A stretch of 64,000 bases of DNA, taken from Roseicyclus mahoneyensis (GTDB lineage: Bacteria; Pseudomonadota; Alphaproteobacteria; Rhodobacterales; Rhodobacteraceae). The stretch covers positions 310,001 to 374,000 of the forward strand of contig NZ_QGGW01000001.1 in assembly GCF_003148775.1 (NCBI RefSeq), in the 5' to 3' direction. Positions 20,278 through 38,633 of the stretch are shown here, one piece after another; position 1 is the first letter of the stretch, and every line of letters starts with the position of its first letter. Under the pieces are notes generated by a model. That model was not told the DNA's origin. It searched no databases and saw only the letters and a list, made by a program, of their open reading frames with translations. Position numbers and translations under genes: made by a program.

Positions 20278-21228
20278 ATGCTGACCCGACGCTTCTTGTT
20301 GTCTTTTGCCACTGCCGCGGCGTTGGCCCTTCCGGCTGCCGCGCAGGATCGTCTTTCCGTTGTGGCCACCACCGGCATGATCGCCGATGCCGCCCGTCAG
20401 GTCGGCGGCGAGCGTGTCGATGTGACCGCGCTCATGGGTCCGGGCGTCGATCCGCATGCCTACCGCCAGACCCGCAGCGACATCGTGACGACGGCGCAGG
20501 CCGATCTGGTCTTTTGGAACGGCCTCTACCTCGAGGCGCAGCTGGAACCCTTCTTGCTGGAACTGGCGGCCGAACGCGCGGTCGTGGCCGTTGCCGAGGC
20601 GATCCCGAGCAGCCAGTTGATCGGCTCCGAGGATTACGAGGGCCGCTTCGACCCCCATGTCTGGATGAACCCCAACCTGTGGTCGCGCGTCGTACTGGCC
20701 ACCCGCGACGCGATGATCGCGGCAGACCCCGACAATGCCGAGACCTATACCGCCAATGCCGCCACCCATCTGGAGGAGTTGGCAGCCCTTGCCGTCTATT
20801 CCCAGACCGTTCTGGCCTCGATTCCGGCCGAGGCGCGGGTTCTGGTCACCGCCCATGACGCCTTCACCTATTTCGGGGCGGCGTACGGGTTCGAGGTGAT
20901 GGGCATTCAGGGCATTTCCACCGAAAGCGAGGCGGGGCTGAACCGGATCTCGGAACTGGTCGATACCCTTGTCACCCGCAATATCGGCGCGGTCTTCGTC
21001 GAGACTTCGGTCTCCGACCGCAACATCCGCGCGCTGATCGAGGGCGCTGCGGCGCAGGGCCATACGGTCAGCATCGGAGGCGAGCTTTTTTCCGACGCCA
21101 TGGGCGCGCCCGGCACTTATGAGGGAACGTATCTGGGCATGATCGACCATAATGTGACGACCATCGCCCGCGCGCTTGGCGGGCAGGCCCCCGAACGGGG
21201 CCGCATCGACGAGTTGGCGCTGAATTGA
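20278..21228 (+). CDS. Manganese/zinc ABC transporter substrate-binding protein
   Basis: Cluster A-I periplasmic metal-binding protein (SitA/MntC/ZnuA type), 316 residues with signal ending near LPAAAQ. Metal ligands visible in order: His in DPHAY near residue 60, His in DPHVWMNP near 125, Glu in GISTESE near 190, and Asp in LFSDAMG near 271, matching the His-His-Glu-Asp set. The long His-rich loop found in ZnuA proteins is absent, which favours manganese over zinc. First gene of a four-gene importer. Confidence 0.9.
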   Translation: MLTRRFLLSFATAAALALPAAAQDRLSVVATTGMIADAARQVGGERVDVTALMGPGVDPHAYRQTRSDIVTTAQADLVFWNGLYLEAQLEPFLLELAAERAVVAVAEAIPSSQLIGSEDYEGRFDPHVWMNPNLWSRVVLATRDAMIAADPDNAETYTANAATHLEELAALAVYSQTVLASIPAEARVLVTAHDAFTYFGAAYGFEVMGIQGISTESEAGLNRISELVDTLVTRNIGAVFVETSVSDRNIRALIEGAAAQGHTVSIGGELFSDAMGAPGTYEGTYLGMIDHNVTTIARALGGQAPERGRIDELALN

Positions 21229-22049
21229 CCGACCTCATGCCATCCACGCTGACACTGGCCGCAAGTGGTGGCGCGCAGACAGGGGCGGGGCCTGACCCCG
21301 CCAGCCCGCTTTGCCTGCGCGGGCTGACGGTCAGTTATGGCGACAAGCCCGCGTTGTTCTCGGTCGATGCGACGTTCCCGGCGGGGGCGATGTCGGCCAT
21401 CATCGGGCCCAACGGGGCGGGAAAATCGACGCTTCTCAAGGCCGCGCTGGGGTTGATCCCGACGGTCTCGGGGCAGGTGACTGTCTATGGCCAGCCTGTT
21501 GCCGCTGCCCGCGACCGCATCGCCTATGTGCCCCAGCGCGCCAGTGTCGATTGGGATTTCCCGACCACGGTGATCGACGTGGTCTTGATGGGCCGCTACC
21601 GCAAGCTGGGCCTGTTTCGTCGGGTCAGCCGGGCGGAACGCGCCCTTGCCCTCGACGCGTTGGCCCGCGTCGGCATGGAGGGCTTTGCCGACCGCCAGAT
21701 CGGTCAACTCTCCGGCGGCCAGCAGCAGCGCGTCTTTCTCGCCCGCGCGCTGGCGCAAGACGCTGATCTCTACGTGCTTGACGAACCTTTCGCGGGCGTC
21801 GACGCCGCCACCGAGCGCGCCATAATCGACCTGCTCAAGGGTCTCAAGGCGCAAGGCAAATCCGTCATCGCCGTGCATCATGACCTTGCCACGGTCGCCG
21901 GATATTTCGACCATGTCTTTCTCGTCAACGTCCGCGCAATGGCCGAGGGGCCGGTCGAGACCACTTTCACACCCGCAGCACTGGCACAGACCTATGGCGG
22001 CCGTCTGGCGGCGACGCATCTGGACCAGCTTGCCCTGACGGTGCGCTAG
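21225..22049 (+). CDS. Metal ABC transporter ATPase (SitB/MntB-like)
   Basis: ATP-binding subunit of 274 residues: Walker A GPNGAGKST near residue 65, signature LSGGQQQR near 163, Walker B LYVLDEPFAGVD near 182 and a switch VHHD near 217. Reading can start at TTG 21225, which overlaps the preceding stop (TTGA), or at ATG 21237; neither has a strong ribosome site. The first 25 residues are a variable polar lead. It is coupled to the flanking binding-protein and permease genes. Confidence 0.9.
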   Translation: MTDLMPSTLTLAASGGAQTGAGPDPASPLCLRGLTVSYGDKPALFSVDATFPAGAMSAIIGPNGAGKSTLLKAALGLIPTVSGQVTVYGQPVAAARDRIAYVPQRASVDWDFPTTVIDVVLMGRYRKLGLFRRVSRAERALALDALARVGMEGFADRQIGQLSGGQQQRVFLARALAQDADLYVLDEPFAGVDAATERAIIDLLKGLKAQGKSVIAVHHDLATVAGYFDHVFLVNVRAMAEGPVETTFTPAALAQTYGGRLAATHLDQLALTVR

Positions 22050-22052
22050 GTC

Positions 22053-23264
22053 ATGCCGGATTTCCTTGCCGCGCTGCTGCTTCAGGCGGGCTACAATGCC
22101 ACGCTGGTGACCATCGGGGCGGGCCTTTTGGGCTTTGCGGCAGGGGCGGCGGGCACTTTTCTGTTCCTGCGCAAGCGGGCGCTGGTGTCGGACGCGGTCG
22201 CCCATGCCACGCTGCCCGGGGTCGCCATTGCCTTTCTGGTCATGGTGGCCTTGGGCGGCAACGGGCAAAGCCTTGTCGGTCTGCTTTTGGGCTCCGCGCT
22301 CAGTGCCTTTGCCGGGCTGTGGCTGGTGGAATGGATCGCGCGGACCACGCGGCTGGCCGAGGATGCGGCCATCGGCGCGGTGTTGTCGGTGTTCTTCGGC
22401 TTTGGCGTCGTGCTGTTGACGGTGATCCAGACGCTCGACCGGGGGCGGCAGGCGGGGCTGGAGGATTTCTTGCTCGGCTCCACCGCCGGCATGCTGCTGC
22501 AAGATGCGCAGACCATCGCCTTTGGCGGTGCGCTCACCGTGGCTTTGATCTGGGTACTGCGCCGCCCGATGACGCTGGTGGCCTTCGATGCGGGCCATGC
22601 GGCCGCGATGGGCATCGACACGCGACGCGTCGATCTGGCGATGATGGGGCTGGTGATGGCCGTGACGGTCATCGGGCTCAAGCTGGTGGGCCTGATCTTG
22701 ATCGTGGCGATGTTGATCATTCCCGCCGTCACCGCGCGTTTCTGGACCAACCGGGTCGAGCGCGTGCTGTGGACCGCGGGTGTGATCGGCGGCGTCTCGG
22801 GCTATGTCGGCGCGGCCTTGTCCGCCTCGGCCCCTGACCTGCCGACCGGGCCGATCATCGTGCTGATCGCCGCGGGTGTGTTTGCGCTGTCGCTGCTCTT
22901 TGCGCCCGCGCGCGGTGTGTTGGCCTCGGCGCTGGCGCACCGCCGGTTTCAGGCGCGTGTCCACCGCCGGCAGGGGCTGCTGGCGCTGGTGCGGGCGGAA
23001 CCCATCCACGACCCGCTGACGCTGCGGATCTTGCGGGCCGAGGGGCTGATCCGCCGCGACGGGGTCGCCACCGACAAGGGCAGGGCGCTTGCCGCAAAGA
23101 TCGCCCGCGATGAACGCCGCTGGGACGTGGCGCGCGCGGTGCATCAGGACACGGCGCTCACCGGGCGCTACGACGGGCTGACGCCCATCGAAGACGTCTT
23201 CACCGCCGACCAGATCGCCGATTTCGACGCGCGGCTGGGTGGCCCGCAGCCGGTGGGGGGCTAG
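22053..23264 (+). CDS. Metal ABC transporter permease with C-terminal helix-turn-helix-like tail
   Basis: Residues 1-285 are a typical SitC/ZnuB-family permease with about eight or nine membrane segments. Residues about 286-403 form an extra soluble part, rich in Arg and Asp, with IHDPLTLRILRAEGLIRRDG followed by TDKGRALAAKI, the layout of a winged helix of the DtxR/MntR kind. Permeases of this family normally end near residue 285. The tail probably faces the cytoplasm and could sense metal or gate transport. It starts 3 bases after the ATPase stop. Confidence 0.88.
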   Translation: MPDFLAALLLQAGYNATLVTIGAGLLGFAAGAAGTFLFLRKRALVSDAVAHATLPGVAIAFLVMVALGGNGQSLVGLLLGSALSAFAGLWLVEWIARTTRLAEDAAIGAVLSVFFGFGVVLLTVIQTLDRGRQAGLEDFLLGSTAGMLLQDAQTIAFGGALTVALIWVLRRPMTLVAFDAGHAAAMGIDTRRVDLAMMGLVMAVTVIGLKLVGLILIVAMLIIPAVTARFWTNRVERVLWTAGVIGGVSGYVGAALSASAPDLPTGPIIVLIAAGVFALSLLFAPARGVLASALAHRRFQARVHRRQGLLALVRAEPIHDPLTLRILRAEGLIRRDGVATDKGRALAAKIARDERRWDVARAVHQDTALTGRYDGLTPIEDVFTADQIADFDARLGGPQPVGG

Positions 23265-23267
23265 GCC

Positions 23268-24194
23268 ATGGGCGCGGATTTCGTGCAGTTCTCGCTCACC
23301 CCGATCCTGATCGGCATCCTTGCCGCCATCGCCTGCGCGCTGCCCGGCAATTTCTTGATCCTGCGTCGGCAGGCGCTGATCGGGGATGCGATTTCCCATG
23401 TCGTGCTGCCGGGCATCGTGGTGGCCTTTCTGGTCACGGGGACGGTCGCGGCCATCCCCATGCTGCTTGGGGCAGGCGCCGCGGCGCTGGTCGCGGTGGT
23501 GTTGATCGAGGCGATCCGTCGTCTGGGCGGGATCGAGCCGGGGGCGGCCATGGGTGTGGTCTTTACCGCGCTTTTCGCGGGCGGTGTGCTGCTCTTGGAG
23601 CAATCCGACACCTCCCGTGTGCATCTGGACGTTGAACACGCGCTGATGGGCAATCTGGAAACACTTATCTGGCTTCGCGCGGAGGGATGGGGAAGTCTGC
23701 TGGACCCCGTCGCTCTGGCCAGCCTGCCGCCCGAATTGCCGCGCATGGCGGTGGTGGCGGCGCTGATCGCGGTGCTGACGCTGATCTTCTGGCGGCCCCT
23801 CAAGCTTTCCACCTTCGACGAGGGGTTCGCCCGCGCCATCGGCCTGCCGGTGTCGCTGATCGGTCTGGCGCTGGTCATCACCGCCACTGTCGCCGCCGTG
23901 GCGGCCTTCGACGCGGTCGGGTCCATCATCGTGATCGCCATGTTCATCTGCCCGCCCGCGGCCGCCCGCCTGTTGACCAACAGCCTTGCCGCGCAGGTCT
24001 GGTGGTCGGTCGCTTTGGCCATGCTCTCGGCCATCCTTGGCTATGTGCTGGCGGGCTACGGGCCGCTCTGGCTGGGGTTTTCCAACTCGGTCAGCGCGGC
24101 GGGCATGATCGCGACGGTCTCGGGCGTGATCCTCGGGCTGGCCTGTGTGGTCGGGCCCTATCGCCGGCGGGTGGGCGTCGCGGTCGGGGCGTGA
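23268..24194 (+). CDS. Metal ABC transporter permease (SitD-like)
   Basis: A 308-residue ZnuB/SitD-type permease with eight or nine hydrophobic segments, starting 3 bases after the longer permease. It lacks the soluble tail of its neighbour, so the two probably form a heterodimeric channel. The conserved block GDAISHVVLPGIV near residue 38 is typical of the family. Confidence 0.9.
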   Translation: MGADFVQFSLTPILIGILAAIACALPGNFLILRRQALIGDAISHVVLPGIVVAFLVTGTVAAIPMLLGAGAAALVAVVLIEAIRRLGGIEPGAAMGVVFTALFAGGVLLLEQSDTSRVHLDVEHALMGNLETLIWLRAEGWGSLLDPVALASLPPELPRMAVVAALIAVLTLIFWRPLKLSTFDEGFARAIGLPVSLIGLALVITATVAAVAAFDAVGSIIVIAMFICPPAAARLLTNSLAAQVWWSVALAMLSAILGYVLAGYGPLWLGFSNSVSAAGMIATVSGVILGLACVVGPYRRRVGVAVGA

Positions 24195-24257: not shown

Positions 24258-25088
24258 ATGACCGACGCCTATGATCCCGCCACCGAGGGCGCGCAGATGT
24301 CATTCGCGCGCGAGATGAGCTATGGCGACTACCTCGCGCTCGAAGGGCTTTTGGAGGGGCAAAAACCCCTGTCGAACGCCCATGACGAGATGCTGTTCAT
24401 CATCCAGCACCAGACGAGCGAATTGTGGATGCGGCTGGCGATCCATGAGCTGACGGCGGCGCGCAGCGGTCTGATGGGCGGAGAGGTGCGCCCGGTGTTC
24501 AAGATGCTGACGCGGGTGGCGCGCATCTTCGAGCAGCTCAACGGCGCATGGGACGTACTGCGCACCATGACGCCGTCGGAATACACCGCCTTCCGCGACG
24601 ATCTGGGAAAATCCTCGGGGTTTCAGTCGCATCAGTATCGCCGGATCGAATTCATGCTGGGCAACCGCAACCCCGCGATGCTCAAGGTGCATGAACACCG
24701 CCCGGCGCTGCATGGCGCGCTGACCGCAGAACTGTCGCACAAATCGCTCTACCATGTCGCGCTGGACCGTCTGGGCGCGCAGACCGGGCAGGATTTCAGC
24801 GCGACCTACAAGATGGATGCGCCCCATGCGGCGCAAGATGCGATCCGTGACGCATGGGCCACGGTCTACCAATCCCCGCAGGCGCATTGGGAGCTTTATG
24901 AACTGGCCGAAAAGCTGGTGGATCTGGAGGATTATTTCCGCCGCTGGCGCTTCAACCATGTCACGACCGTGGAGCGCATCATCGGGTTCAAGCGCGGCAC
25001 AGGGGGCACGTCGGGGGTGCAATATCTGCGCCGGATGCTCGAGGTGGAATTGTTCCCCGAGCTTTGGCAGGTCAGGGGGCAGCTATGA
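24258..25088 (+). CDS. kynA: Tryptophan 2,3-dioxygenase
   Basis: Heme enzyme opening the indole ring of L-tryptophan to N-formylkynurenine. The 276-residue all-helical protein shows the family pattern: MSYGDYLALEGLL near residue 20, the distal HDEMLFIIQHQTSELW block near 42-57, SGFQSHQYRRIEF near 113-125, and the C-terminal HVTTVERIIGFKRGTGGTSG block carrying the proximal heme histidine. It overlaps kynU by ATGA. No formamidase gene is in the window, so that step must be encoded elsewhere. Confidence 0.95.
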   Translation: MTDAYDPATEGAQMSFAREMSYGDYLALEGLLEGQKPLSNAHDEMLFIIQHQTSELWMRLAIHELTAARSGLMGGEVRPVFKMLTRVARIFEQLNGAWDVLRTMTPSEYTAFRDDLGKSSGFQSHQYRRIEFMLGNRNPAMLKVHEHRPALHGALTAELSHKSLYHVALDRLGAQTGQDFSATYKMDAPHAAQDAIRDAWATVYQSPQAHWELYELAEKLVDLEDYFRRWRFNHVTTVERIIGFKRGTGGTSGVQYLRRMLEVELFPELWQVRGQL

Positions 25089-26287
25089 AGGATCACGCGA
25101 TGACCGTCTTGCGCAAACACATGTTCGACCTGCCCGACGGGATGATCTACCTCGATGGCAATTCGCTGGGGCCCTTGCCGCGCGCCGTGCCCGACCGGGT
25201 CGCGCAGGCGATGACCGGGCAATGGGGCGCGCATCTGATCAAGGGCTGGAACCTTGACGGCTGGATGGCGCAACCGTCGCGCGTGGGCGATCTGGTGGGC
25301 CGTCTGATAGGCGCACAGGCCGGGTCGGTGGTGATGGGCGACACGCTGTCGATCAAGGTCTATCAGGCCCTGTCGGCGGCACTTCAGATGCGGCCCGAGC
25401 GGCGTGTGATCTTGTCGGACAACGGGAATTTCCCGACCGATCTCTACATGGCCGAGGGGCTGATCCGGCAGCTCGGTCACGGTCACGGCCTGCGCGTGGT
25501 CGACCCCGAGGCGGTGGCGGACGCCATTGCCGACGATGTGGCGGTCGTCATGCTGACGCAGGTCGATTACCGCACCGGGCGCATGCACGACATGAAGGCC
25601 ATCACCGAACGCGCGCACAAGGCAGGCGCGGTGATGATCTGGGATCTGGCCCATAGCGCAGGCGCGGTGCCGGTCGATCTGGCGGGATCGGGCGCGGAAT
25701 TCGCCGTGGGATGCACCTACAAATACCTCAACGGCGGCCCCGGCGCGCCGGCCTTCATCTATGTCCGCCCCGATCTGGCCGATCAGGTCGAGCCCGCGCT
25801 GGCTGGCTGGCTGGGGCACGAAGCGCCCTTCGCCTTCGACCTCGCCTATCGGCCCGCGCCGGGTGTCGAGCGGATGCGCGTCGGCACGCCGCCGGTGCTG
25901 CAACTGACCGCGCTTGAGGCTGCGCTCGAGGTCTGGGAGGGGGTCGACATGGCCGATCTGCGCGCCGCCTCGGTCGCCTTGTGCGAGACCTTCATCGCCG
26001 AGGTGGAAGCGCGTTGCCCATCGCTGACGCTGGCCAGCCCGCGCGATCCCGCGCAGCGTGGTTCGCAGGTCTCGTTCCGATCCGAGCATGGCTATGCCGC
26101 GATGCAGGCGCTGATCGCGCGTGACGTGATCGGCGATTTCCGCGCGCCCGACATCATGCGCTTCGGCTTCACCCCGCTTTACGTGTCGGAGGGCGATGTG
26201 CGCGCCGCCGCCAAGATCATCGAGGAGGTGATCGACGGCCGGCTCTGGGACCGCCCCGAATACATGGCCCGCCAGCGCGTGACCTAG
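25085..26287 (+). CDS. kynU: Kynureninase
   Basis: PLP enzyme cleaving kynurenine to anthranilate and alanine. From the ATGA overlap at 25085 it has 400 residues, normal for the family. Seen: YLDGNSLGPLP near residue 22, IWDLAHSAGAVPVDL near 190 (Asp and His near the cofactor), and the PLP lysine in GCTYKYLNGGPG near 219. It ends by sharing the CTAG tetranucleotide with the stop codon of the convergent CoA-transferase gene. Confidence 0.95.
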   Translation: MKDHAMTVLRKHMFDLPDGMIYLDGNSLGPLPRAVPDRVAQAMTGQWGAHLIKGWNLDGWMAQPSRVGDLVGRLIGAQAGSVVMGDTLSIKVYQALSAALQMRPERRVILSDNGNFPTDLYMAEGLIRQLGHGHGLRVVDPEAVADAIADDVAVVMLTQVDYRTGRMHDMKAITERAHKAGAVMIWDLAHSAGAVPVDLAGSGAEFAVGCTYKYLNGGPGAPAFIYVRPDLADQVEPALAGWLGHEAPFAFDLAYRPAPGVERMRVGTPPVLQLTALEAALEVWEGVDMADLRAASVALCETFIAEVEARCPSLTLASPRDPAQRGSQVSFRSEHGYAAMQALIARDVIGDFRAPDIMRFGFTPLYVSEGDVRAAAKIIEEVIDGRLWDRPEYMARQRVT

Positions 26288-27522
26288 GAGGCCGCGCGCA
26301 GCGCCGCCCGCGAGGGCTGCGCCACGATGCCGGCGTCGAAAAGCCGCGCGATGTCGCCCTCGGGCAGGCGGGCGACATCGGCCAGAACGGCTTCGGTATG
26401 CTGACCGAGGAGGGGGGCGGGGGTGGCCGGGTCGCGCGCCATGCCGGAAAAGCCGAAGGGCGTGCCGGGGCTGAGGTAAGTGCCGATTCCGGGCTGCGTG
26501 ACCTCGGAAAAGATCGGGTTGTCGGGCGACAGGTCGGGGTCGTCCTCGATCGCTTGGGAGAAGGTGCGGAATTCCGACCATGTGACGCCCGCGCGGTCGA
26601 GATCGGCGGCGAAATCCGCGACGCGGCGGGCTTTGAACCACGGCGCAAGCACGGCCGTGATCGCGTGCCGCGCGTGCCAGCGCGCGCCCTCGTCGCGGAA
26701 ATCCGCGCCAAGCGCATTGGCCAAGGCGTCCATCGGCTCGGACAGGCCGGTGACCTTGAGCAGGTTCTGCCACTGCCGTGCCGTCAGCCCGATGACCATG
26801 ACGCGCCTGCCATCGGCGCATGGGAAATCCTGACCATAGGCGCCATAAAGGCTGTTGCCCGCGCGGCCCCGCGTGGTGCCCGTCACCGCATGTTCCCCGA
26901 TGATCCCCAGATGGCCGAGCATGGCGGCGGCCACATCCTTGAGCGTCAGATCGACGGCTTGGCCGCTGCCATGGCGCAGCCGGTGGCGTTCGGCGGCGAG
27001 CAATCCCGAGACGACCAGCCCCCCCGCAATCGCGTCCCATGCGGGCAGCGCGTGGGCGACAGGCTCCTCGGACCCTTCGGGGCCGGTCGCCATGGGAAAG
27101 CCCACGGCGGGGTTCACGGTATAATCGACCGCAGGTCGTCCGTGGCGGTCGCCGCGCAGGCTGACCGACACCAGATCGGGGCGGCGTGCGGCCAGCGTCG
27201 CGTGATCTGTCCAGCCTTGCGTGGCGAGATTGGTGATGAACAGGCCCGCGTCATCGCCCGGCGCGCAGATGATTTCCTGCGCGATCTCGCGGCCGCGGGG
27301 CGTCTTGACGTCGAGCGCGACGGACCGTTTGCCCTTGTTCATGCCTGCCCAGAACAGGCTTTGCCCGTTCGGAGCGACAGGCCAGCGCCCCGCATCCATG
27401 CCGCCCGTGGGCAGGTCGAAGCGGATCACATCCGCCCCCATCTGCGCCAGCGTCATGCCCGCCAGCGGCACCGCCACGAAAGCGGAGCTTTCGACCACGC
27501 GCATGCCCGAAAGGATGCCCAT
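26284..27522 (-). CDS. mct: Class III CoA transferase, likely mesaconyl-CoA C1-C4 CoA transferase
   Basis: CaiB/BaiF-family CoA transferase of 412 residues. N-terminal Rossmann-like block with ESSAFVAVPLAGMTLAQMGA, and VDLTLKDVAAAMLG near residue 190 with the aspartate expected to carry CoA. Start chosen at ATG 27522, overlapping the hydratase stop as TGATG and preceded by GGAGTGGG. Next to a mesaconyl-C4-CoA hydratase, malyl-CoA lyase and malate-CoA ligase, the best guess is Mct, which moves CoA within mesaconyl-CoA from C1 to C4, as in the 3-hydroxypropionate bicycle. A CoA transferase for mesaconate or itaconate is the main alternative. Confidence 0.72.
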   Translation of the reverse strand: MGILSGMRVVESSAFVAVPLAGMTLAQMGADVIRFDLPTGGMDAGRWPVAPNGQSLFWAGMNKGKRSVALDVKTPRGREIAQEIICAPGDDAGLFITNLATQGWTDHATLAARRPDLVSVSLRGDRHGRPAVDYTVNPAVGFPMATGPEGSEEPVAHALPAWDAIAGGLVVSGLLAAERHRLRHGSGQAVDLTLKDVAAAMLGHLGIIGEHAVTGTTRGRAGNSLYGAYGQDFPCADGRRVMVIGLTARQWQNLLKVTGLSEPMDALANALGADFRDEGARWHARHAITAVLAPWFKARRVADFAADLDRAGVTWSEFRTFSQAIEDDPDLSPDNPIFSEVTQPGIGTYLSPGTPFGFSGMARDPATPAPLLGQHTEAVLADVARLPEGDIARLFDAGIVAQPSRAALRAAS

Positions 27523-28400
27523 CAATCCCACTCCGCCCGCGCGGTCATGCCCAGGTAGCCCTCAGGCGTCGCGGTGCCGAGGTCCATGGTCTTGCCATTG
27601 GCCGACAGCTTGCCCTGAAGGCGCAGGTCATGGGTGTGGAACATCGGATGCACGCCGCGGAAGCTGAAGCGCTTGGGCGGGACGCCGGTGTGCCGTTTGG
27701 CGGTTTCCATCAGCATGATCGCCTGCATCGGGCCGTGGGTGACGAGGGCGGGGTATTTCTCGACCTCGCGCGCGTAAGGAAGGTCGTAGTGGATGCGGTG
27801 GGCGTTGTAGGTGGCGGCGGAAAACCGGAACAGCCGCGCCTCGTTGATCGTGACCGTCTCGTCGAAATCGGGGCTTTCCAGTTCGGGCAGACGCTTGGGC
27901 GGCGTGAAGGTCTCGGGGATGTGGAGATAGACGATATCTTGCTCCTCCTCCACGAAACTGCCGGTCTCGCCCTCGATCTGGTGGCCGACGGTGACGAAAA
28001 CCATGTCGCCTGTCGCCCCGGTCTTGGCCTTGACCGAGCGGATCACCGATTTGCGCCTGAGCCTCTCGCCGATGCGCAAGCTGCCATGAAAGGTCAGCGA
28101 CCCCGCCGCCCACATCCGCCGCTTGAAGGCGAGCGGCGGCAGGAAATTGCCCAGTTCCGGGTGTCCGTCCTGCCCCAGTTGGGACAGCGGCACAAACTCG
28201 GGGAAGGCCGCCCAATGCCACAGGCGCGGCAAAAGCCCGCCGCGCCGCGTGTCGCGCGGCAGCGACAGCGGGTGCGAGACCGCCGCACTCATCATCCCCG
28301 CCAGTTCGGGCGCGAGACACCCCCAACGTTCCTCGGTCCGACCGACCCAATCCTCGGCCTCGCGCAATGCAACCATGGGAAATGTCTCCAGCTTCGTCAT
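27522..28400 (-). CDS. meh: MaoC-like hydratase, likely mesaconyl-C4-CoA / itaconyl-CoA hydratase
   Basis: A 292-residue double-hotdog hydratase: an N-terminal FAS1-dehydratase-like half and a C-terminal MaoC half with the active-site block FSAATYNAHRIHYDLPYA near residue 200 (catalytic His and Asp/Asn). Members of this subfamily hydrate mesaconyl-C4-CoA or itaconyl-CoA to citramalyl-CoA. Coupled by ATGA to mtkB upstream and TGATG to the CoA transferase. It would feed citramalyl-CoA to the lyase encoded in the same operon, giving acetyl-CoA and pyruvate. Confidence 0.78.
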   Translation of the reverse strand: MTKLETFPMVALREAEDWVGRTEERWGCLAPELAGMMSAAVSHPLSLPRDTRRGGLLPRLWHWAAFPEFVPLSQLGQDGHPELGNFLPPLAFKRRMWAAGSLTFHGSLRIGERLRRKSVIRSVKAKTGATGDMVFVTVGHQIEGETGSFVEEEQDIVYLHIPETFTPPKRLPELESPDFDETVTINEARLFRFSAATYNAHRIHYDLPYAREVEKYPALVTHGPMQAIMLMETAKRHTGVPPKRFSFRGVHPMFHTHDLRLQGKLSANGKTMDLGTATPEGYLGMTARAEWD

Positions 28401-29293
28401 GCTGCGACCTTCATACCCAGCATGCGCGCCACTGTCTCGCCCATCGACGACGGGTTGGGGGCGACCATGATGCCCGCATCTTGCAAGATCTCGACCTTTT
28501 CCTGCGCGCTTTCACCAAAAGCGCTGATGATCGCGCCCGCATGCCCCATCTTGCGGCCCTTGGGGGCTGACAGGCCCGCGACATAGGCCGCGACGGGTTT
28601 GCTCATGTGGTCGCGGACGAAGCCTGCTGCCTCGGCCTCCTGAGGGCCGCCGATCTCGCCGATCATGATGACAGCGTCGGTTTCCGGATCGTTTTCAAAG
28701 AGTTCAAGGATGTCCTTGAAGCTGGAGCCATTGATCGGATCGCCCCCGATCCCGATCGAGGACGACACCCCGATCCCGAGCGCGGACATCTGGCTGGCGG
28801 CCTCATAGCCCAAGGTGCCCGAGCGGCCCACGATGCCGACGCGGCCGGCTTTGTAGATATGGGGCGGCATGATGCCCATGAAGCCGATGCCGGGGCTGAT
28901 GATGCCCGCGCAATTCGGGCCGATCAGGCGCATCTTCTTCTCGCGCGGGTAGCGCTTGAGAAAGCGTTTCACCTTCATCATGTCTTGCGCGGGCAACCCG
29001 TCGGTCACGCAGACTGCGGTCTTTATCCCTGCGTCAGCGGCTTCCATCATCGCATCCGCTGCAAAGGCGGGCGGCACGAACAGCAGCGATGCGTCCGCCC
29101 CGGTCGCCTCCACCGCGTCGCGCACCGTGTTGAACAGCGGTCGGCCGAGCAGCGTTTCGCCACCCTTGCCCGGCGTGACGCCGCCCACGACATTGCTGCC
29201 GTAGTCGATCATTTCCTCGGCATGGAATTGGCCGATCCGGCCTGACATGCCCTGAACGATGATCTTCGTGTCCTTGGTGATCAAAATGGCCAT
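28397..29293 (-). CDS. mtkB: Malate-CoA ligase alpha subunit (SucD/MtkB family)
   Basis: A 298-residue CoA-binding subunit of the succinyl-CoA synthetase superfamily: Rossmann CoA site near the N-terminus (VQGMSGRIGQFHAEEM), GPNCAGIISP near residue 125, and the phosphohistidine in MGHAGAIIS near 248. Adjacent to a malyl-CoA lyase rather than to TCA-cycle genes, it fits malate-CoA ligase (malate + CoA + ATP to malyl-CoA) better than succinyl-CoA synthetase. Overlaps the hydratase by 4 bases. Confidence 0.85.
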   Translation of the reverse strand: MAILITKDTKIIVQGMSGRIGQFHAEEMIDYGSNVVGGVTPGKGGETLLGRPLFNTVRDAVEATGADASLLFVPPAFAADAMMEAADAGIKTAVCVTDGLPAQDMMKVKRFLKRYPREKKMRLIGPNCAGIISPGIGFMGIMPPHIYKAGRVGIVGRSGTLGYEAASQMSALGIGVSSSIGIGGDPINGSSFKDILELFENDPETDAVIMIGEIGGPQEAEAAGFVRDHMSKPVAAYVAGLSAPKGRKMGHAGAIISAFGESAQEKVEILQDAGIMVAPNPSSMGETVARMLGMKVAA

Positions 29294-29305
29294 GATGCGC
29301 GCTCC

Positions 29306-30484
29306 TTATTCGGCGGCGACGGGGGTGGGGCGGGCGCGCACGGCGGCGCGCGCCGCCTCGGCCAGCGTGTCGGCAGAGATCAGCGGCAGGCCCGAGGTGC
29401 GGATGATCTCGCGCCCTTCCTCCACATTCGTGCCCGACAGTCGGACGACGACGGGCAGGCTCAACCCGACCTCCTCGTAGGCTTGCACCACGCCCTTGGC
29501 GATCCAGTCGCAGCGGTTGATGCCCGCGAAGATGTTGACCAAGATCACGCTGACATTGGGATCGGTCAGGACCGTGCGGAAGGCGGTGACGACCCGCGCG
29601 GGGCTGGCGCCGCCGCCGATATCGAGGAAGTTGGCAGGCTCGCCGCCTGCCAGCTTGATCATGTCCATCGTGGCCATGGCGAGGCCTGCGCCGTTGATGA
29701 TGCAGCCGATGTCGCCCTCAAGCCCCACATAGGCGAGGCCATTGTCATGGGCGCTGCTCTCTCGCGGGTCTTCCTGCCCCGGATCGCGCAGCGCCTCGAC
29801 CTGCGGGCGGCGATAAAGCGCGTTGGTGTCGAAGGACATTTTCGCGTCCAGCGCCACCAGATCGCCCGCGCCGGTAATGGCAAGCGGGTTGATCTCGACC
29901 ATCATGGCATCCAGATCGCGGTAGGCGCGGTAGCAGGCGCGCAGGGTGGTCGCGAATTGCGCGACTTGGCTGCCCTTGAGGCCAAGGCGAAACGCCAGTT
30001 CGCGCGCCTGATAGTCGACAAGCCCTGCCGCGGGGTCGATCACCATGCGCACGAGGCTGTCGGGGTCGTTTTCGGCCAGATCCTCGATCTCCATCCCGCC
30101 ATGGCCGGAGGCCACGATCATGATGCGCTCGGATTTGCGGTCGAGCACAAAGCCCAGATAGATTTCCTGCGCGATGTCGGTCGCTTCTTCGACCCAGAGG
30201 CGCTCTACCAGCTTGCCGCCCGCGCCGGTCTGCTTGGTGACGAGGGTCTTGCCCAGAAGGGTGGCGGCGAAGCTGCGCACCTCGGCTTCTGTCTTGCACA
30301 GTTTCACACCGCCCGCCGCCCCCCGGCCGCCGGAATGGATCTGCGCCTTGACCACGCAATTGTTGCCGCCAAGCTGGCGGAAGGCATGCGCCGCCTGTTC
30401 GGGGCTGAAGGCGACAAAGCCCTTTGGCACCGGCACGCCGAATTCGGCGAGAATGGCCTTGGCCTGATGTTCATGGATGTCCAT
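29306..30484 (-). CDS. mtkA: Malate-CoA ligase beta subunit (SucC/MtkA family)
   Basis: ATP-grasp subunit of 392 residues: [12 protein letters not shown] start, [15 protein letters not shown] near residue 46, EINPL near 201, [15 protein letters not shown] near 215, and GGGASPARV with [17 protein letters not shown] near 300-335. Several of these segments (for example [14 protein letters not shown] and FAGINRCDW) resemble what I recall of MtkA of serine-cycle methylotrophs. It precedes mtkB by 12 bases and is separated from mcl by a REP-like repeat. Confidence 0.87.
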
Positions 30485-30506
30485 GCGTCAGTTCTCCCTT
30501 CCGTCG

Positions 30507-30557
30507 GGTGGGCGACCTGCCCACCATTGGCTATGCAGGTGGGCGCAATCGCCCACC
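30507..30557. repeat. REP-like double hairpin (GGTGGGC family) between mcl and mtkA
   Basis: GGTGGGC-GACCT-GCCCACC (30507-30525) and GGTGGGCG-CAAT-CGCCCACC (30538-30557), two perfect stems 12 bases apart. The unit resembles the dispersed GGGTGGGC repeats found between genes in many proteobacteria. It could act as an RNA processing or stability element splitting the operon. Confidence 0.7.
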
Positions 30558-30565
30558 CTACGGTC

Positions 30566-31519
30566 TCATTCGGCGGCAACAGTGCGGGCGGCGATGGCAT
30601 CGGCCATGTCGATCACGTTGCGGGCCATCTTTTCGGAAGCGGCGTCGATCATCTTGCCATCAAGGCTTGCGGCCCCTTTGCCCTGTGCCTCGGCGGCTTT
30701 CAGTTCCGCGATGATGCGGTGGGCGCGGGTCACTTCGGCCTCGGGCGGGCTGAAGACCTCGTTGGCCATGCCCACCTGACTGGGGTGGATCGCCCATTTG
30801 CCTTCGCAGCCAAGGGCGGCGGCGCGGCGCGCTCCGGCCTTGTAGCCCTCGGGGTCAGAGAAATCGCCGAACGGCCCGTCTATGGCGCGCAGCCCGTAGG
30901 CGCGGCAGGCGATGACCATCCGCGTGATCGAGGCGTGCCATTGATCTCCCGGATAATCCGGGTTCAGCCCGCCGATATTGGTGGTGCGCGCCCGCATGCT
31001 GGCGGCATAGTCGGCGACACCGAAATGCAGCGCCTCCAACCGGCCACCGAACTGCGCGATGGCCTCCACATTGGCCATGCCAAGCGCGGTCTCGATCAGC
31101 GCCTCAAGCCCCACGCGGGTCTGCACGCCGGTGCCTTGTTCGATCTGGTTCACCATCGCCTCGACCATGTAAAGATCGGCGGTGACGCCCACCTTGGGCA
31201 CCAGCAGCGTGTGCACCCGGTCGCCCGCCTGTTCCATCACGTCGACGACGTCGCGGTACATGTAGTGCGTGTCGAGCCCGTTGATCCTGACGCTCACGGT
31301 CTTGCCCTTGGCGGCCCAATCAATGTCGTTGAGCGCCTGAATGGCGTTCTTGCGGGCCTGCGCCTTTTCGGGGGGGGCGACCGCATCCTCGAGATCGAGA
31401 AAGACGTAATCGGCGGCAGACTCGGCCGCCTTGTCGATCATCGTCGGGTTGGAGGCAGGCACCGCCAGTTCCGAGCGTTGCAGGCGCTGGCGGCGCAGCG
31501 GGTGAAGCGTGTGGGACAT
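30566..31519 (-). CDS. mcl: Malyl-CoA / beta-methylmalyl-CoA / citramalyl-CoA lyase (CitE-like)
   Basis: HpcH/HpaI-CitE family TIM barrel of 317 residues. Seen: RSELAVPASNP near residue 15, VFLDLEDAVAPPEKAQAR near 38 (Mg-binding acidic residues), SVRINGLDTHYMYRDVVD near 76, and FGDFSDPEGY and WAIHPSQV in the C-terminal half. It splits malyl-CoA into glyoxylate and acetyl-CoA and, in homologues, also acts on beta-methylmalyl-CoA and citramalyl-CoA. Linkage to mtkAB fits the malyl-CoA role; linkage to the hydratase and CoA transferase fits the citramalyl-CoA role. Confidence 0.88.
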   Translation of the reverse strand: MSHTLHPLRRQRLQRSELAVPASNPTMIDKAAESAADYVFLDLEDAVAPPEKAQARKNAIQALNDIDWAAKGKTVSVRINGLDTHYMYRDVVDVMEQAGDRVHTLLVPKVGVTADLYMVEAMVNQIEQGTGVQTRVGLEALIETALGMANVEAIAQFGGRLEALHFGVADYAASMRARTTNIGGLNPDYPGDQWHASITRMVIACRAYGLRAIDGPFGDFSDPEGYKAGARRAAALGCEGKWAIHPSQVGMANEVFSPPEAEVTRAHRIIAELKAAEAQGKGAASLDGKMIDAASEKMARNVIDMADAIAARTVAAE

Positions 31520-31543
31520 GGTCGGGCTCTTTCGGAAACGGGA

Positions 31544-32014
31544 TTAGAAGGCGCCGAGACGGGCAAGGCCCGTGCGCGGATCGGTCAGCACGATATCGGC
31601 ATGTGCGCCCGCCAGATCGGCCGCGGGCGTGCCACTTGCATCCACGAACAAAAGTGCATCGTGGAATGACGCATCGAGGGCTGCGCGCACGTCACGGGGG
31701 GCCATGTCGCCCGCCACCACCAGCACCGCCTTGAGCATCCCGTAGCGGTCTTGGCCGATGCGGCGGGCTACGGCCTTGGGCGTAAGCTGCGCCAGTATCT
31801 CGACCCTGAGGCCCGCGCATTGGGCAAGATCGGCCCAGTGGCGTGCGGCCCCATCGCCGCCCAGAACCAGAACCCGGTCATGGGGCGCGAGGGCTGTGGA
31901 AAGGATCGCCTGCCAAGCCGTGAGCGTCGCGCCGGGCATCAGGTGGATTTCTGCGGGTCGGCCCTTTTGGTCGCCCGTCACACGCGGTGTCAGATGGGTC
32001 TGGCGGCTGTGCAT
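31544..32014 (-). CDS. Shortened class V aminotransferase-like protein (serine-glyoxylate aminotransferase remnant or new small protein)
   Basis: A 156-residue protein matching only the central part of class V aminotransferases such as serine-glyoxylate aminotransferase: LMPGATLTAWQAILSTAL near residue 25, RVLVLGGDGAARHWADLA near 45, and ALLFVDASGT near 120. It lacks the N-terminal and C-terminal thirds, and the region where the PLP lysine should be (TGSQKG in the family) reads TDPRTG, so it cannot be a normal aminotransferase. It has a strong GGGAGGA ribosome site and no internal stop, so it may be expressed. First gene of the mcl-mtkAB-meh-mct operon. Confidence 0.65.
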   Translation of the reverse strand: MHSRQTHLTPRVTGDQKGRPAEIHLMPGATLTAWQAILSTALAPHDRVLVLGGDGAARHWADLAQCAGLRVEILAQLTPKAVARRIGQDRYGMLKAVLVVAGDMAPRDVRAALDASFHDALLFVDASGTPAADLAGAHADIVLTDPRTGLARLGAF

Positions 32015-32090
32015 CCTGTTGTCCTCCCTCCAAGATGTGGAGGCACCATGCCTGTGGGGCGGCCGGTTTCAAAACCGTTCCGGGTCCTGC

Positions 32091-32110
32091 TGTAAATGCG
32101 AGAATTTACA
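32091..32110. promoter_or_regulatory. Palindrome TGTAAAT-N6-ATTTACA, likely ScfR operator
   Basis: A 7-6-7 inverted repeat (32091-32097 and 32104-32110) between the divergent malyl-CoA operon and the ScfR-family regulator, 45 bases before the regulator ATG. AT-rich palindromes are the usual targets of this regulator family, so both directions may be controlled from here. Confidence 0.6.
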
Positions 32111-32154
32111 TGCTATGATTTCCGTCAACTTGTGAACATTCGGGAACACACGCC

Positions 32155-33558
32155 ATGAAAACCTTCATCGGTCCCCGCCTGCGCCGGTTGCGCGTCGATC
32201 ATGGCCAGACGCAGGCCCAGATGGGCAAGGCGTTGGGCATCTCGACATCCTACGTCAACCTTCTGGAAAAGAACGAAAGATCGGTCTCGGTTCCGGTCTT
32301 GCTCAAGCTGTTCGAGACCTATGGCGTCGATTGGCGCGATCTGGCCGATGACGAGGACACCGCCCATCTGGCGGATCTGCGCGCCGCCTTGGCCGATCCG
32401 CTCTTCGAGGGCGACCGCCCCGATCTGGCGCAGATGCGCGCAGCGCTGAGCCATGCGCCCGATCTGGCCACCTGTTTTCTGCGCCTGCACAGGTCCTATC
32501 TGGCGACCACCGACCAGTTGATGAGCGTCGTCGAAGTGGGCGATGGCGCGCGCGGGTTCCTGCACAGCTCGCCCGAGGAAACCGTCCACACCTTCTTTCG
32601 CAAGAACCGCAACCATTTCCCCGCGCTCGAACAGGCGGCCGAGGCGTTCTGGGATGGCTTGGCCCCCGCCACCGACGATGTCTATGCCGCGCTCAAGCAA
32701 CGCCTGCTGGCGCGCTTGGGCCTGAGGGTGCAACTGGTGACGGTTGCCGACATGCCCCAGACGCTGCGCCAGTATGACGAGGCGCGGCGGCTCATTCTTC
32801 TATCAGAAGCTCTGGATCACCCCAACCGTGTGTTCCAGTTGGTGCATGTGGCAGGGCTGATCGAATTGCGCGCGATCTTCGACGAATTGTTGACCCAAGC
32901 GCAACTGTCCGACGCACAGGACCGGGCGCGCTGTCGGGTGGAACTGGCCAATTACTTCGCCGCCGCCGTGCTGATGCCCTATGGGCCCTATCTCGCTGAG
33001 GCGCTGGCCTCGCGCTATGATTTCGACCATCTGGCGACGCGCTTCGGCGTCAGTTTCGAACAGGCCGCCCATCGCGCGACCACCCTGCAACGGCGCGGCG
33101 CGCAAGGCGTGCCGTTCTTTTTCCTGCGCATCGACAAGGCGGGCAATGTCACCAAGCGGTTCAATTCGACCGATTTCCATCTGGCCGAACATGGCGGCGC
33201 CTGTCCGCGCCTCGAGGTGCACATGTCCTTCCGCACGCCCGGTCGCATCGTGCCGCAACTCGTGGAAATGCCGGACCAGAGCCGCTTCATGGTGTTTTCG
33301 CGCACCGTCGACCGGCCGAGCTTTGCACGTCACACCCAAGATGTGCGGCTGGCCGTCGCCATTGGTTGTTCGGTCGATCACGCGCAAGCCATCGGCTATG
33401 CCGACACTCTGGCCGCCGCCAATGCGCCCGTGACCGAGATCGGGATCAATTGCCGGATCTGCCCCCGTGCGGCTTGCGACCAACGTGCCCATCACGCCAT
33501 CGTCATGACCGAACCGTTGGATGAACGCCGCCGCGGGGCCACGCGCTATTCGGCCTGA
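32155..33558 (+). CDS. Short-chain fatty acyl-CoA regulator (ScfR/PccR/RamB family)
   Basis: A 467-residue transcription factor: XRE-type helix-turn-helix at residues about 8-62 (QTQAQMGKALGISTSYVNLL), a middle ImmA/IrrE-like region around residues 200-300 lacking an intact HExxH, and a C-terminal DUF2083 domain ending in the family cysteine motif CRICPRAACDQR near residue 437-448. Relatives sense propionyl-CoA or other acyl-CoA thioesters and control propionate, methylcitrate or glyoxylate genes. Divergence from mcl-mtkAB-meh-mct makes those genes the likely targets. Confidence 0.87.
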   Translation: MKTFIGPRLRRLRVDHGQTQAQMGKALGISTSYVNLLEKNERSVSVPVLLKLFETYGVDWRDLADDEDTAHLADLRAALADPLFEGDRPDLAQMRAALSHAPDLATCFLRLHRSYLATTDQLMSVVEVGDGARGFLHSSPEETVHTFFRKNRNHFPALEQAAEAFWDGLAPATDDVYAALKQRLLARLGLRVQLVTVADMPQTLRQYDEARRLILLSEALDHPNRVFQLVHVAGLIELRAIFDELLTQAQLSDAQDRARCRVELANYFAAAVLMPYGPYLAEALASRYDFDHLATRFGVSFEQAAHRATTLQRRGAQGVPFFFLRIDKAGNVTKRFNSTDFHLAEHGGACPRLEVHMSFRTPGRIVPQLVEMPDQSRFMVFSRTVDRPSFARHTQDVRLAVAIGCSVDHAQAIGYADTLAAANAPVTEIGINCRICPRAACDQRAHHAIVMTEPLDERRRGATRYSA

Positions 33559-33709: not shown

Positions 33710-34852
33710 ATGGGACCTTTTCCGCATGACGCCCCGAAAGCCACCATCGACGCGATCAACGTGGCAGGCACCGACGGGTTCGAATTCGTCGAATTTGCCC
33801 ATCCCGACCCGGCCGTGCTGGAGAGCCTGTTCACCGCGATGGGCTTCACAGAGGTCGCGCGCCACAAGACCCGCGACATCTCGCTCTACCGGCAAGGCGA
33901 CATCACCTATGTGCTGAACCGCGACCCCGACTGCCATGCCGCCCGCTTTGTCGAGGCCCACGGCCCCTGCGCCCCCGCGATGGCGTGGCGGGTGGTCGAT
34001 GCGCAGCACGCGCTGAAATGCGCGCTCGACTATGGCTCGACGGAATACACCGGGCCGGGCAAGTCGCTCGATGTGCCCGCTGTCATCGGCATTGGCGGAT
34101 CGCTGCTCTACTTCGTCGAGAGCTATGGTGAGGGCGCCAGCCCCTATGGTGCCGAATACGACTGGCTGGGCGCGGTGGACCCGAAGCCGCAGGGCGCGGG
34201 CTTCTCCTACCTCGACCACCTCACGCATAACGTGCAGCGCGGCAACATGAGCACCTGGTATGATTTCTACGCCAAGGCCTACAATTTCCGCGAGATCCGG
34301 TATTTCGACATCAAGGGCAAGCAGACCGGCCTGTTTTCCCGCGCGTTGACGTCGCCTTGCGGCAAGATACGCATCCCGATCAACGAGAGTGCCGACGCGA
34401 CCAGCCAGATCGAGGAATACTTGCGCGCATACAAGGGCGAAGGCATCCAGCATATCGCGGTGGCAAGCAACGACATCTATGCATCGGTGGACAAGATCGC
34501 CGCAAACGGCATCGAGTTCATGCCCACCCCTCCGAAATCCTATTACGCCATGAGCCACAAGCGCGTGCAGGGCCATGAGGAACCCATCGCACGGATGATG
34601 CAACATGGCATCTTGATCGACGGCGAAGGCGTGGTGGATGGCGGCATGACGCGCATCTTGCTGCAGATCTTTTCCAAGACGGTGATCGGGCCAATCTTCT
34701 TCGAGTTCATCCAGCGCAAGGGCGATGACGGCTTTGGCGAGGGGAATTTCAAGGCGCTCTTCGAGTCGATCGAGCAAGACCAGATTGATCGCGGTGTGTT
34801 GAAGGCCTCAAGCAGCGAAGCGGTAGGGCGTAAGCAGGCCGCGGGGGAATGA
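33710..34852 (+). CDS. hppD: 4-Hydroxyphenylpyruvate dioxygenase
   Basis: Converts 4-hydroxyphenylpyruvate to homogentisate in tyrosine breakdown. The 380-residue two-domain (vicinal oxygen chelate) protein shows the iron ligands His170 (YLDHLTHNV), His248 (IQHIA) and Glu332 (FFEFIQRKG), plus the conserved C-terminal GFGEGNFKALFESIE. Start ATG 33710 is preceded by AGGGAGG. It overlaps fahA by ATGA. Homogentisate dioxygenase, which should act next, is absent from the window. Confidence 0.96.
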   Translation: MGPFPHDAPKATIDAINVAGTDGFEFVEFAHPDPAVLESLFTAMGFTEVARHKTRDISLYRQGDITYVLNRDPDCHAARFVEAHGPCAPAMAWRVVDAQHALKCALDYGSTEYTGPGKSLDVPAVIGIGGSLLYFVESYGEGASPYGAEYDWLGAVDPKPQGAGFSYLDHLTHNVQRGNMSTWYDFYAKAYNFREIRYFDIKGKQTGLFSRALTSPCGKIRIPINESADATSQIEEYLRAYKGEGIQHIAVASNDIYASVDKIAANGIEFMPTPPKSYYAMSHKRVQGHEEPIARMMQHGILIDGEGVVDGGMTRILLQIFSKTVIGPIFFEFIQRKGDDGFGEGNFKALFESIEQDQIDRGVLKASSSEAVGRKQAAGE

Positions 34853-36111
34853 GCCTGAACGCCACGCATGATCCGGGCCGGCGCAGTTGGATCGACAGCG
34901 CCAATGCGCCCGGCTGCGATTATCCGATCCAGAACCTGCCTTGGGGCGTGTTTTCCGACAGCGACGGGACGCGCCGGGTTGGGGTGGCGATCGGCGATCT
35001 GATCCTGGACGTGACGGCGCTGGAGGCTGCGGGCATCGTGGAACCCGCGCCGGGGCGGCGGGTTTTTGGCGAGGGTTTCCTCAACCCGTTCATGGCGCTG
35101 GGGCCTGCCGTCTGGTCGGCCACGCGCGCTGCTTTGGCCGATCTCCTGGACGCTCGGACGGGGGATCGCGCTTTGCCGCTGGTGGCGCAGAAGGGCGCCA
35201 CAATGCACCTGCCCATCTTCGCGCGCAGCTACACCGATTTCTACGCCTCGCGCGAGCATGCGACCAATGTCGGCACCATGTTTCGCGGGGCGGACAATGC
35301 CCTGCCACCCAACTGGCTGCACATGCCCATCGGCTACAACGGGCGGGCGTCCACCGTGGTCGTCTCGGGCACGGGCATCCGTCGGCCATTGGGGCAGTTG
35401 AAGGCGGCTGATGACCCGGTGCCGCGCCTTGGCCCGTCGCAGAAACTGGATTTCGAGCTGGAACTTGGCGCGATCCTTGGCACCGGCAACGCCATGGGCG
35501 CGCCGGTGACGACCGTGCAGGCCTGGGAGATGATCTTTGGCTTCGTGCTCCTCAACGACTGGTCGGCGCGCGATGTGCAGGTCTGGGAATATCAGCCTCT
35601 GGGGCCGTTCCAGTCCAAGGCTTTCGGCACCACGATCAGCCCTTGGGTGGTGACCCGCGAGGCGCTGGCGCCCTTTGTGGTGGCCCCGCCCGAGCGTGCG
35701 CTTCCGCTCTTGCCATACCTGCACGAGACCGCGCCCCATAACCTTGACCTTGCCTTGGAGATCGACCTTGCGCCGCAGGGGCAGGGGCCCACGACGATCG
35801 CCCGCACCAATGCGCGTCATCTGTATTACTCCGCCGCCCAGCAGATCGCCCATCACGCGATTTCGGGCTGCGCCATGGAAACGGGCGATCTGATCGGGTC
35901 GGGCACGATTTCCGGCCCCACGCCCGACAGCCGTGGCGCACTGCTGGAACTGACGTGGAACGGGCGCGACCCGGTGACGGTTGCGGGCGGCACGCGGAGC
36001 TTTTTGCAAGACGGCGACAGCGTGACCTTGCGCGGCTGGTGCGAGGGGGCTTACCGGCTGGGCTTCGGCCCGTGCGAGGGCACTATCCTGCCCGCACCCG
36101 AGGCACCATGA
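34849..36111 (+). CDS. fahA: Fumarylacetoacetase
   Basis: Final enzyme of the homogentisate route, splitting fumarylacetoacetate to fumarate and acetoacetate. The 420 residues match the family: N-terminal SH3-like domain with NLPWGVFS, then the FAH barrel with YTDFYASREHATNVG near residue 125 (metal-binding Asp and catalytic His), DFELELGAILG near 200, LLNDWSARDVQ near 233 and GSGTISGP near 345. Coupled to hppD and to the Rieske gene by ATGA overlaps. Confidence 0.95.
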   Translation: MSLNATHDPGRRSWIDSANAPGCDYPIQNLPWGVFSDSDGTRRVGVAIGDLILDVTALEAAGIVEPAPGRRVFGEGFLNPFMALGPAVWSATRAALADLLDARTGDRALPLVAQKGATMHLPIFARSYTDFYASREHATNVGTMFRGADNALPPNWLHMPIGYNGRASTVVVSGTGIRRPLGQLKAADDPVPRLGPSQKLDFELELGAILGTGNAMGAPVTTVQAWEMIFGFVLLNDWSARDVQVWEYQPLGPFQSKAFGTTISPWVVTREALAPFVVAPPERALPLLPYLHETAPHNLDLALEIDLAPQGQGPTTIARTNARHLYYSAAQQIAHHAISGCAMETGDLIGSGTISGPTPDSRGALLELTWNGRDPVTVAGGTRSFLQDGDSVTLRGWCEGAYRLGFGPCEGTILPAPEAP

Positions 36112-38533: not shown

Positions 38534-38587
38534 GGGGCCTTGCCCTCCTTCGGTATCAGGACGCTGTGGTGCGCGGAAACATGGTGC

Positions 38588-38618
38588 GCGGCCCCCGCAG
38601 GTCCACCGCGGGGGCCGC
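38588..38618 (-). terminator. Perfect 11-bp hairpin between dctP and dctQ
   Basis: GCGGCCCCCGC (38588-38598), 9-nt loop, GCGGGGGCCGC (38608-38618). Lying just after the binding-protein stop in the transcript, it likely makes dctP mRNA more abundant than the permease message. Confidence 0.65.
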
Positions 38619-38633
38619 CCCTGATCTTCCGCG

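Follow-up and report, generated by a model that had tools for sequence, protein, structure and literature searches.

The alphaproteobacterium Roseicyclus mahoneyensis (Rhodobacteraceae) encodes, within a 64,000-nucleotide stretch of contig NZ_QGGW01000001.1 (positions 310,001 to 374,000; hereinafter the window), an operon that couples homologs of malate-coenzyme A (CoA) ligase (MtkA and MtkB) and malyl-CoA lyase (Mcl) to a mesaconyl-C4-CoA hydratase-like protein (Meh) and a class III CoA transferase of the mesaconyl-CoA type (Mct). We consider it moderately probable that this operon is a regulated module disposing of propionyl-CoA and making pyruvate. In such a module, MtkAB would use ATP to convert malate to malyl-CoA, which Mcl would cleave to acetyl-CoA and glyoxylate. 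The glyoxylate would then be joined with propionyl-CoA, whose salvage would run through Mcl, mesaconyl-C1-CoA hydratase (Mch), Mct, Meh, and again Mcl, with Mct shifting the CoA to C4, Meh hydrating the product to (S)-citramalyl-CoA, and the latter being split into acetyl-CoA and pyruvate by a lyase that is probably Mcl. The net reaction would be malate + propionyl-CoA + CoA + ATP -> 2 acetyl-CoA + pyruvate. The route would thus combine an ATP-dependent malate cleavage with the second half of the 3-hydroxypropionate bi-cycle, and a local ScfR regulator would control the operon. We infer these enzyme activities and the direction of flow from the genes described below.

An earlier note on this DNA, made from the sequence alone, had proposed the five-gene arrangement, and this is borne out: homologs of mcl, mtkA, mtkB, the hydratase, and the transferase lie on the minus strand at 26284-31519 (Table 1) of a genome of 4.03 Mb (32 contigs, 99.99% complete). 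The genes are tightly packed, with mct and meh overlapping by 10 bases and meh and mtkB by 4, and with gaps of 12 bases between mtkB and mtkA, 81 between mtkA and mcl, and 24 between mcl and a remnant of an aminotransferase gene. A chance neighborhood was rejected because 14 of 56 Mct loci of relatives show the same order, mcl-mtkA-mtkB-(meh)-mct (one of them, L070, without meh). The closest named Mct loci, at 85-88% identity, come from Roseicyclus and Roseibacterium persicicum, and the whole operon is also found in Mameliella alba (L101).

Table 1. Genes and promoter element of the operon region, in positions of the window.
Feature	Position	Strand	Expected role or basis of assignment
Mct-like class III CoA transferase	26284..27531	-	mesaconyl-C1-CoA -> mesaconyl-C4-CoA expected; TIGR04253, 7xkg/8apq matches
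Meh-like (Meh/Ich-like) hydratase	27522..28400	-	mesaconyl-C4-CoA -> (S)-citramalyl-CoA expected; 8khg match
MtkB, malate-CoA ligase alpha subunit	28397..29293	-	succinate-CoA ligase alpha family
MtkA, malate-CoA ligase beta subunit	29306..30484	-	NF010647
Mcl homolog	30566..31519	-	5ugr, 4l9y matches; putative citramalyl-CoA cleavage
Glyoxylate aminotransferase gene remnant	31544..32014	-	NF045640 38.7 bits; alignment with full-length relative L098
Conserved operator-like motif, divergent promoter	32081..32138	-	TTyACA..TGTrAA..TCGCrTTyACAGCAGGACCCG
Divergent ScfR-family regulator (RamB-like)	32155..33558	+	PF09856, NF038139

The best NCBIfam match of the transferase is the 2-methylfumaryl-CoA isomerase model TIGR04253, at 510 bits and below the cut-off of 725, which is passed in none of the 394 genomes, from 393 genera of the family, that we surveyed. 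Its best solved relatives, 7xkg (E = 3.5e-145; 55% identity across the aligned part) and 8apq (E = 2.3e-143), align with it end to end. In the window protein, as in all 133 aligned rows (115 distinct), the catalytic residue Asp165 is conserved together with its partners Arg47, Asn100, Asp135, and Tyr136. By these sequence features the protein is expected to work like Mct, and we do not claim membership in the TIGR04253 equivalog for it. Counted at E 1e-80, homologs of this transferase occur in 67 of the 394 genomes, either in the full operon or in a meh-mct pair standing alone, as in Rhodovulum strictum; meh adjoins mct in 53 of 56 loci of one set and 75 of 80 of another (the sets overlap, and the misses may be contig ends).

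The hydratase matches no NCBIfam model, and its sole good solved relatives are the itaconyl-CoA hydratase 8khg (E = 2e-49; 39% identity over the aligned part) and 8huc. It agrees with 8khg at 39 of the 43 positions that are near-invariant among 120 family sequences, and, as stated in the available part of PMC12290011, the Pseudomonas itaconyl-CoA hydratase doubles as a mesaconyl-C4-CoA hydratase. MtkA exceeds the cut-off of the NCBIfam malate-CoA ligase beta model (660 vs 604 bits), and MtkB is named after this partner, the models that it matches being those of the succinate-CoA ligase alpha subunit; a separate ligase pair, 49-51% identical, is encoded on contig C8 (L077). The best solved relatives of Mcl are malyl-CoA lyases (5ugr, E = 3.8e-116, followed by 4l9y, E = 6.3e-92). 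Four genomes, at five loci (L071/L117, L114, L125, and L127), carry a further lyase homolog, 30-33% identical to the window Mcl, immediately after mct; this is a candidate citramalyl-CoA lyase, a role that would fit the citramalyl-CoA product, and its L117 version had no NCBIfam match at E 1e-50.

The earlier note had listed Mch as missing, which is true of the locus and not of the genome. Contig C8 encodes a homolog, a MaoC protein of 351 residues that, among solved structures, best matches the beta-methylmalyl-CoA dehydratase 8hgn (E = 1.3e-130) and 4e3e, and the absence of Mch from the organism was accordingly rejected. A third Mcl homolog is encoded near this gene, and a second, 48% identical to the window Mcl, on contig C5. 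The search of the genome for mch and ethylmalonyl-CoA pathway genes, which the same note had suggested, also recovered a crotonyl-CoA carboxylase/reductase on C12 (613 bits, cut-off 379), and C3 carries two mutase-family (PF01642) genes, a family-level match that does not tell ethylmalonyl-CoA mutase apart. Homologs of Mcl, Mch, Mct, and Meh, i.e., of the glyoxylate half of the 3-hydroxypropionate bi-cycle, are hence all found in one genome, and every step of the proposed route has a homolog there, with the operon genes complemented by Mch and the two further Mcl homologs. A search restricted to the TIGR01346 type of isocitrate lyase (E 1e-60), which may miss other types, found none in this genome; the same search detected it in 4 of the 394 family genomes and in none of the 67 with Mct, which implies that another source of glyoxylate is needed. 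A gene above the cut-off for BhcA, the aminotransferase of the beta-hydroxyaspartate cycle, lies at C7:174366-175535 (732 bits, cut-off 650); the organism may therefore also run this cycle, which would constitute a competing glyoxylate sink.

The distribution of these genes across the family suggests a specific tie between Mct and one of two types of Mtk. Mtk is present in 95 genomes, of which 92, including that of the window, were classified at a boundary of 68% MtkA identity to the window protein, a value of our own choosing. In type R, mcl, mtkA, and mtkB are codirectional, mostly accompanied by the regulator and an aminotransferase, and MtkA is 68-91% identical to that of the window. Type S corresponds to the serine-cycle cluster, with MtkA mostly 60-66% identical; it also includes a small number of intermediate loci whose mcl lies on the same strand. 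An hprA-like gene occurs in 37 of 48 type S loci vs 1 of 44 type R loci, and a ppc-like gene in 15 of 48 vs none of 44. Close to the boundary, L187 and L223 fall on the R side and lack the regulator and operator, while L228 falls just on the S side. Mct is found in 31 of 45 type R genomes vs 6 of 47 type S or intermediate ones. With genera treated as independent and relatedness uncorrected throughout, the odds ratio for type R and Mct is 19.3 over all 394 genomes (p = 4.5e-17) and 10.2 after removal of the 16 genomes in which they are linked (p = 4.5e-8). For type S it is 0.69 over the 394 genomes, i.e., no association, and for R vs S inside the Mtk genomes, with the linked ones left out, it is 7.8 (p = 2e-4). 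The split by type sharpened the tie, as unsplit Mtk gives 6.2, or 3.6 without linked cases. In these counts, three unclassified genomes (G064, G201, and G383) were entered as not R, G383 having a linked Mct, and G180 was entered as lacking Mct, of which it has only a piece, although a 7.3 kb contig (L227) carries this piece and Meh next to a type R Mtk. The tie of Mct to type R Mtk favors the reading in which malate and propionyl-CoA are consumed together. The suggestion of the earlier note that glyoxylate made from malate serves to salvage propionyl-CoA is possible with the genes present, and the tie persists even where the two are unlinked.

Outside the family, Rhodovibrio sodomensis (L110, 9138-14690) has a meh-mct pair adjoining an inverted mtkAB pair, whose MtkA passes the malate-CoA ligase cut-off; this is a separate linkage of the two modules. 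By eye, many of the lone meh-mct pairs (e.g., L139 and L162) lie near tuf- and ribosomal-protein-like genes.

The divergently encoded regulator carries the PF09856 C-terminal domain (E = 1.2e-56), which identifies it as a member of the ScfR family, and scores 348 bits against the RamB equivalog NF038139, short of the cut-off of 700. By means of a pattern drawn up by eye, the divergent-promoter motif could be aligned in all 30 distinct regulator-linked loci, among them four in which meh-mct occurs without adjoining mtk (L083, L109, L131, and L168). With a 58-column matrix derived from 26 of these sites, 26 of the 30 type R loci outside the building set scored above a threshold of 30, none of the 30 being near copies of the loci used, whereas 0 of the 39 type S or intermediate loci tested (48 fetched) did so. 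The motif core has one exact occurrence in the whole genome and one other site with 3 mismatches. We infer that the regulator binds this motif. By analogy to RamB of Paracoccus, an ScfR relative that seems to prefer beta-methylmalyl-CoA according to the accessible text of PMC10370305, it probably senses a short-chain acyl-CoA such as this one. The RamB and PccR operons of Paracoccus and Rhodobacter, as presented in the same portion of that source, resemble the present system in the regulator family and the repeated promoter boxes, but differ in their target genes and in that the window regulator remains under the RamB cut-off.

Several observations weigh against the coupling of malate cleavage to propionyl-CoA disposal. 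The window Mcl falls below every NCBIfam lyase cut-off (180, 178, and 136 bits against 375, 443, and 500, respectively). More than half of the Mct genomes (36 of 67, including the unclassified but linked G383) are not scored as type R; 29 of the 67 lack Mtk at the threshold used, which indicates that Mct also works without malate cleavage; and, conversely, 14 type R genomes lack Mct at the threshold (one of them, G180, having the aforementioned piece). The stand-alone meh-mct loci have no operator in the stretches fetched. A full-length aminotransferase query matches 38 of the 44 type R loci, so that glyoxylate would there be drawn towards glycine. Finally, the transferase departs from its characterized counterparts around the active-site entrance. 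According to the available part of PMC9813914, the intramolecular Mct hardly uses free acids, and Leu43, Ile74, Arg75, Phe101, and Arg104 coordinate the adenosyl group or narrow the entrance. None of these five seal residues is identical in the window protein, which has Met, Val, Lys, Leu, and Gln, respectively. Across the 133 rows, Leu43 is retained in 126, Arg75 in 25, an Arg or Lys at 104 in 122, and Phe101 in none; Arg314 (PMC9196870) is replaced by Gly in 122. Judging from the alignment, the catalytic center is Mct-like and the seal is not, which means that a strict intramolecular specificity cannot be assumed.

A different, somewhat doubtful use of the same enzymes would be a shunt from the ethylmalonyl-CoA pathway, in which Mct, Meh, and Mcl lead from acetyl-CoA and CO2 to pyruvate and Mtk meets a separate need for glyoxylate. 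Crotonyl-CoA carboxylase/reductase is encoded by the genome at hand and, in total, by 65 of the 67 Mct genomes (all 56 of the good ones), and meh-mct loci without adjoining Mtk are common, with the Mct genomes devoid of Mtk favoring such a shunt. However, 363 of the 394 family genomes have this reductase, and its presence, being almost ubiquitous, is therefore weak evidence and a weak discriminator; moreover, the shunt does not explain why Mct goes with type R Mtk. The shunt and the malate-plus-propionyl-CoA route may both hold. Tentatively, one might envisage a natural oxygen-tolerant route in Rhodobacteraceae, in which CO2 fixation by crotonyl-CoA carboxylase/reductase would allow acetyl-CoA and CO2 to be turned into pyruvate via a branch (Mct-Meh-Mcl) leaving the ethylmalonyl-CoA pathway at mesaconyl-C1-CoA, while malate cleavage and a regulator that senses acyl-CoA would determine the amounts of glyoxylate and propionyl-CoA drawn in or out.

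It is improbable that the enzymes run in reverse, akin to a citramalate cycle, from acetyl-CoA and pyruvate to glyoxylate and propionyl-CoA, with Mtk working backwards to recover ATP from malyl-CoA. The steps are reversible in principle, and such a cycle was reported in Rhodospirillum rubrum and later doubted (PMC8307300, available portion), but the formation of citramalyl-CoA is unfavorable, at 1 to 2.5 even with a 200-fold excess of pyruvate (PMC3832036, available portion), and this role would already fall to the ethylmalonyl-CoA pathway. We regard as quite improbable the breakdown of free C5-dicarboxylates (itaconate, mesaconate, or methylsuccinate), of which the earlier note had raised the first two. 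The affinity of the hydratase to an itaconyl-CoA hydratase with mesaconyl-C4-CoA hydratase activity and the altered seal of Mct against free acids leave some room for it. It is nevertheless less supported because the transferase is nearest to the intramolecular Mct, which hardly uses such acids, and lies far above the intermolecular transferases; additionally, the cut-off of the RipC model is not reached (180 vs 375 bits), and the malate ligase would have no place. A serine-cycle leftover with two passenger genes is very improbable and was rejected: Mcl, Mtk, and an aminotransferase are serine-cycle enzymes in methylotrophs (PMC2948502, available part), but type S loci differ from the window in gene content, operator, and association with Mct, a search of the 64 kb window with a threshold of E 1e-10 yielded neither hprA nor ppc, and mcl is strongly constrained in the operon (omega 0.07-0.13).

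On an Mct tree built by a quick method, from which we draw conclusions solely for a separate 60-row clade, 6 changes of Mtk linkage are needed, 4 of them forced by starred branches (L137 and L143 being scored as unlinked solely because their contigs end there). The operon-linked L088, L094, L095, and L096 fall within that 60-row clade (100 in the Shimodaira-Hasegawa-like approximate likelihood ratio test, SH-aLRT) together with 54 stand-alone rows, while their Mtk and Mcl group with those of Mameliella and its kin (SH-aLRT 98). These conflicting groupings indicate that two lineages of meh-mct fill the same slot.

The aminotransferase is reduced at some of the operon loci. The window remnant has 156 residues, having lost the C-terminal half, and the versions in the window, L081, L097, and L099 are shortened to 156-181 residues, all lacking the lysine that, from the alignment and knowledge of the family, we take to be the pyridoxal phosphate-binding one. 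Other relatives examined (L054, L072, L095, and L098) have a full-length protein of 400-418 residues. The omega of the remnant (0.31-0.62) contrasts with that of mcl given above. The reading frame of the remnant stays open in the window and in three related species. The full gene occurs in Roseibacterium persicicum (L098), which the Mtk-Mcl tree nests among the remnant carriers; a regain or parallel losses are possible.

The operon is flanked by genes for the breakdown of tryptophan (dioxygenase and kynureninase, 24258-26287) and tyrosine (4-hydroxyphenylpyruvate dioxygenase, HPPD, and fumarylacetoacetase, 33710-36111), flanks that are common to L081, L099, and L097 (to the contig end) and partly to L098, and that are absent from the remaining operon loci of the two Mct locus sets. 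Farther out, visual inspection suggests a metal-type ABC uptake system composed of a binding protein, an ATPase, and two permeases (20278-24194) and TRAP-type transporter genes, including one for a DctP-family binding protein (36465-39695).

Among known systems, the second half of the Chloroflexus 3-hydroxypropionate bi-cycle is similar in that homologs of Mcl, Mch, Mct, and Meh occur in one genome, and the window Mct shares 55% identity with its Roseiflexus counterpart where the two align. Unlike in Chloroflexus, glyoxylate would here come from malate by an ATP-dependent ligase rather than a succinyl-CoA:malate CoA transferase, Mch is unlinked, the host has crotonyl-CoA carboxylase/reductase, the regulator is local, and the active-site seal is not conserved. 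The partial bi-cycle of Kentron and other symbionts (PMC6593406) differs in that Smt is named for malate activation in the available part of that source, where the gene holders listed are Chloroflexi, several Gammaproteobacteria, Accumulibacter, and one symbiotic alphaproteobacterium, a list that does not contain free-living Rhodobacteraceae. Enzymes such as 2-methylfumaryl-CoA isomerase are noted in Alpha- and Gammaproteobacteria in the accessible part of PMC9802188, which suggests a role in the assimilation of organic substrates in Actinobacteriota. The serine-cycle cluster (sga, mtkA, mtkB, hprA, ppc, mcl) shares the activation and cleavage of malate and an aminotransferase; unlike it, the window locus lacks hprA and ppc and has its own regulator, promoter motif, and meh-mct. 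Neither operon nor regulator is described in the open-access literature among the matches listed (titles and abstract starts, with subscription papers mostly outside); the parts are known, and their combination appears to be new.

Mesaconyl-C4-CoA chemistry of this kind has mostly been described in Chloroflexi and a small number of symbionts, and the Mct survey now places a homolog in about a sixth of the genomes of a single family. If the proposed function is true, these bacteria would have a third route for using propionyl-CoA beside the methylmalonyl-CoA and methylcitrate routes, and could form pyruvate independently of malic enzyme. Half of a carbon-fixation cycle, best known in green non-sulfur bacteria, thus seems to be re-used for feeding.

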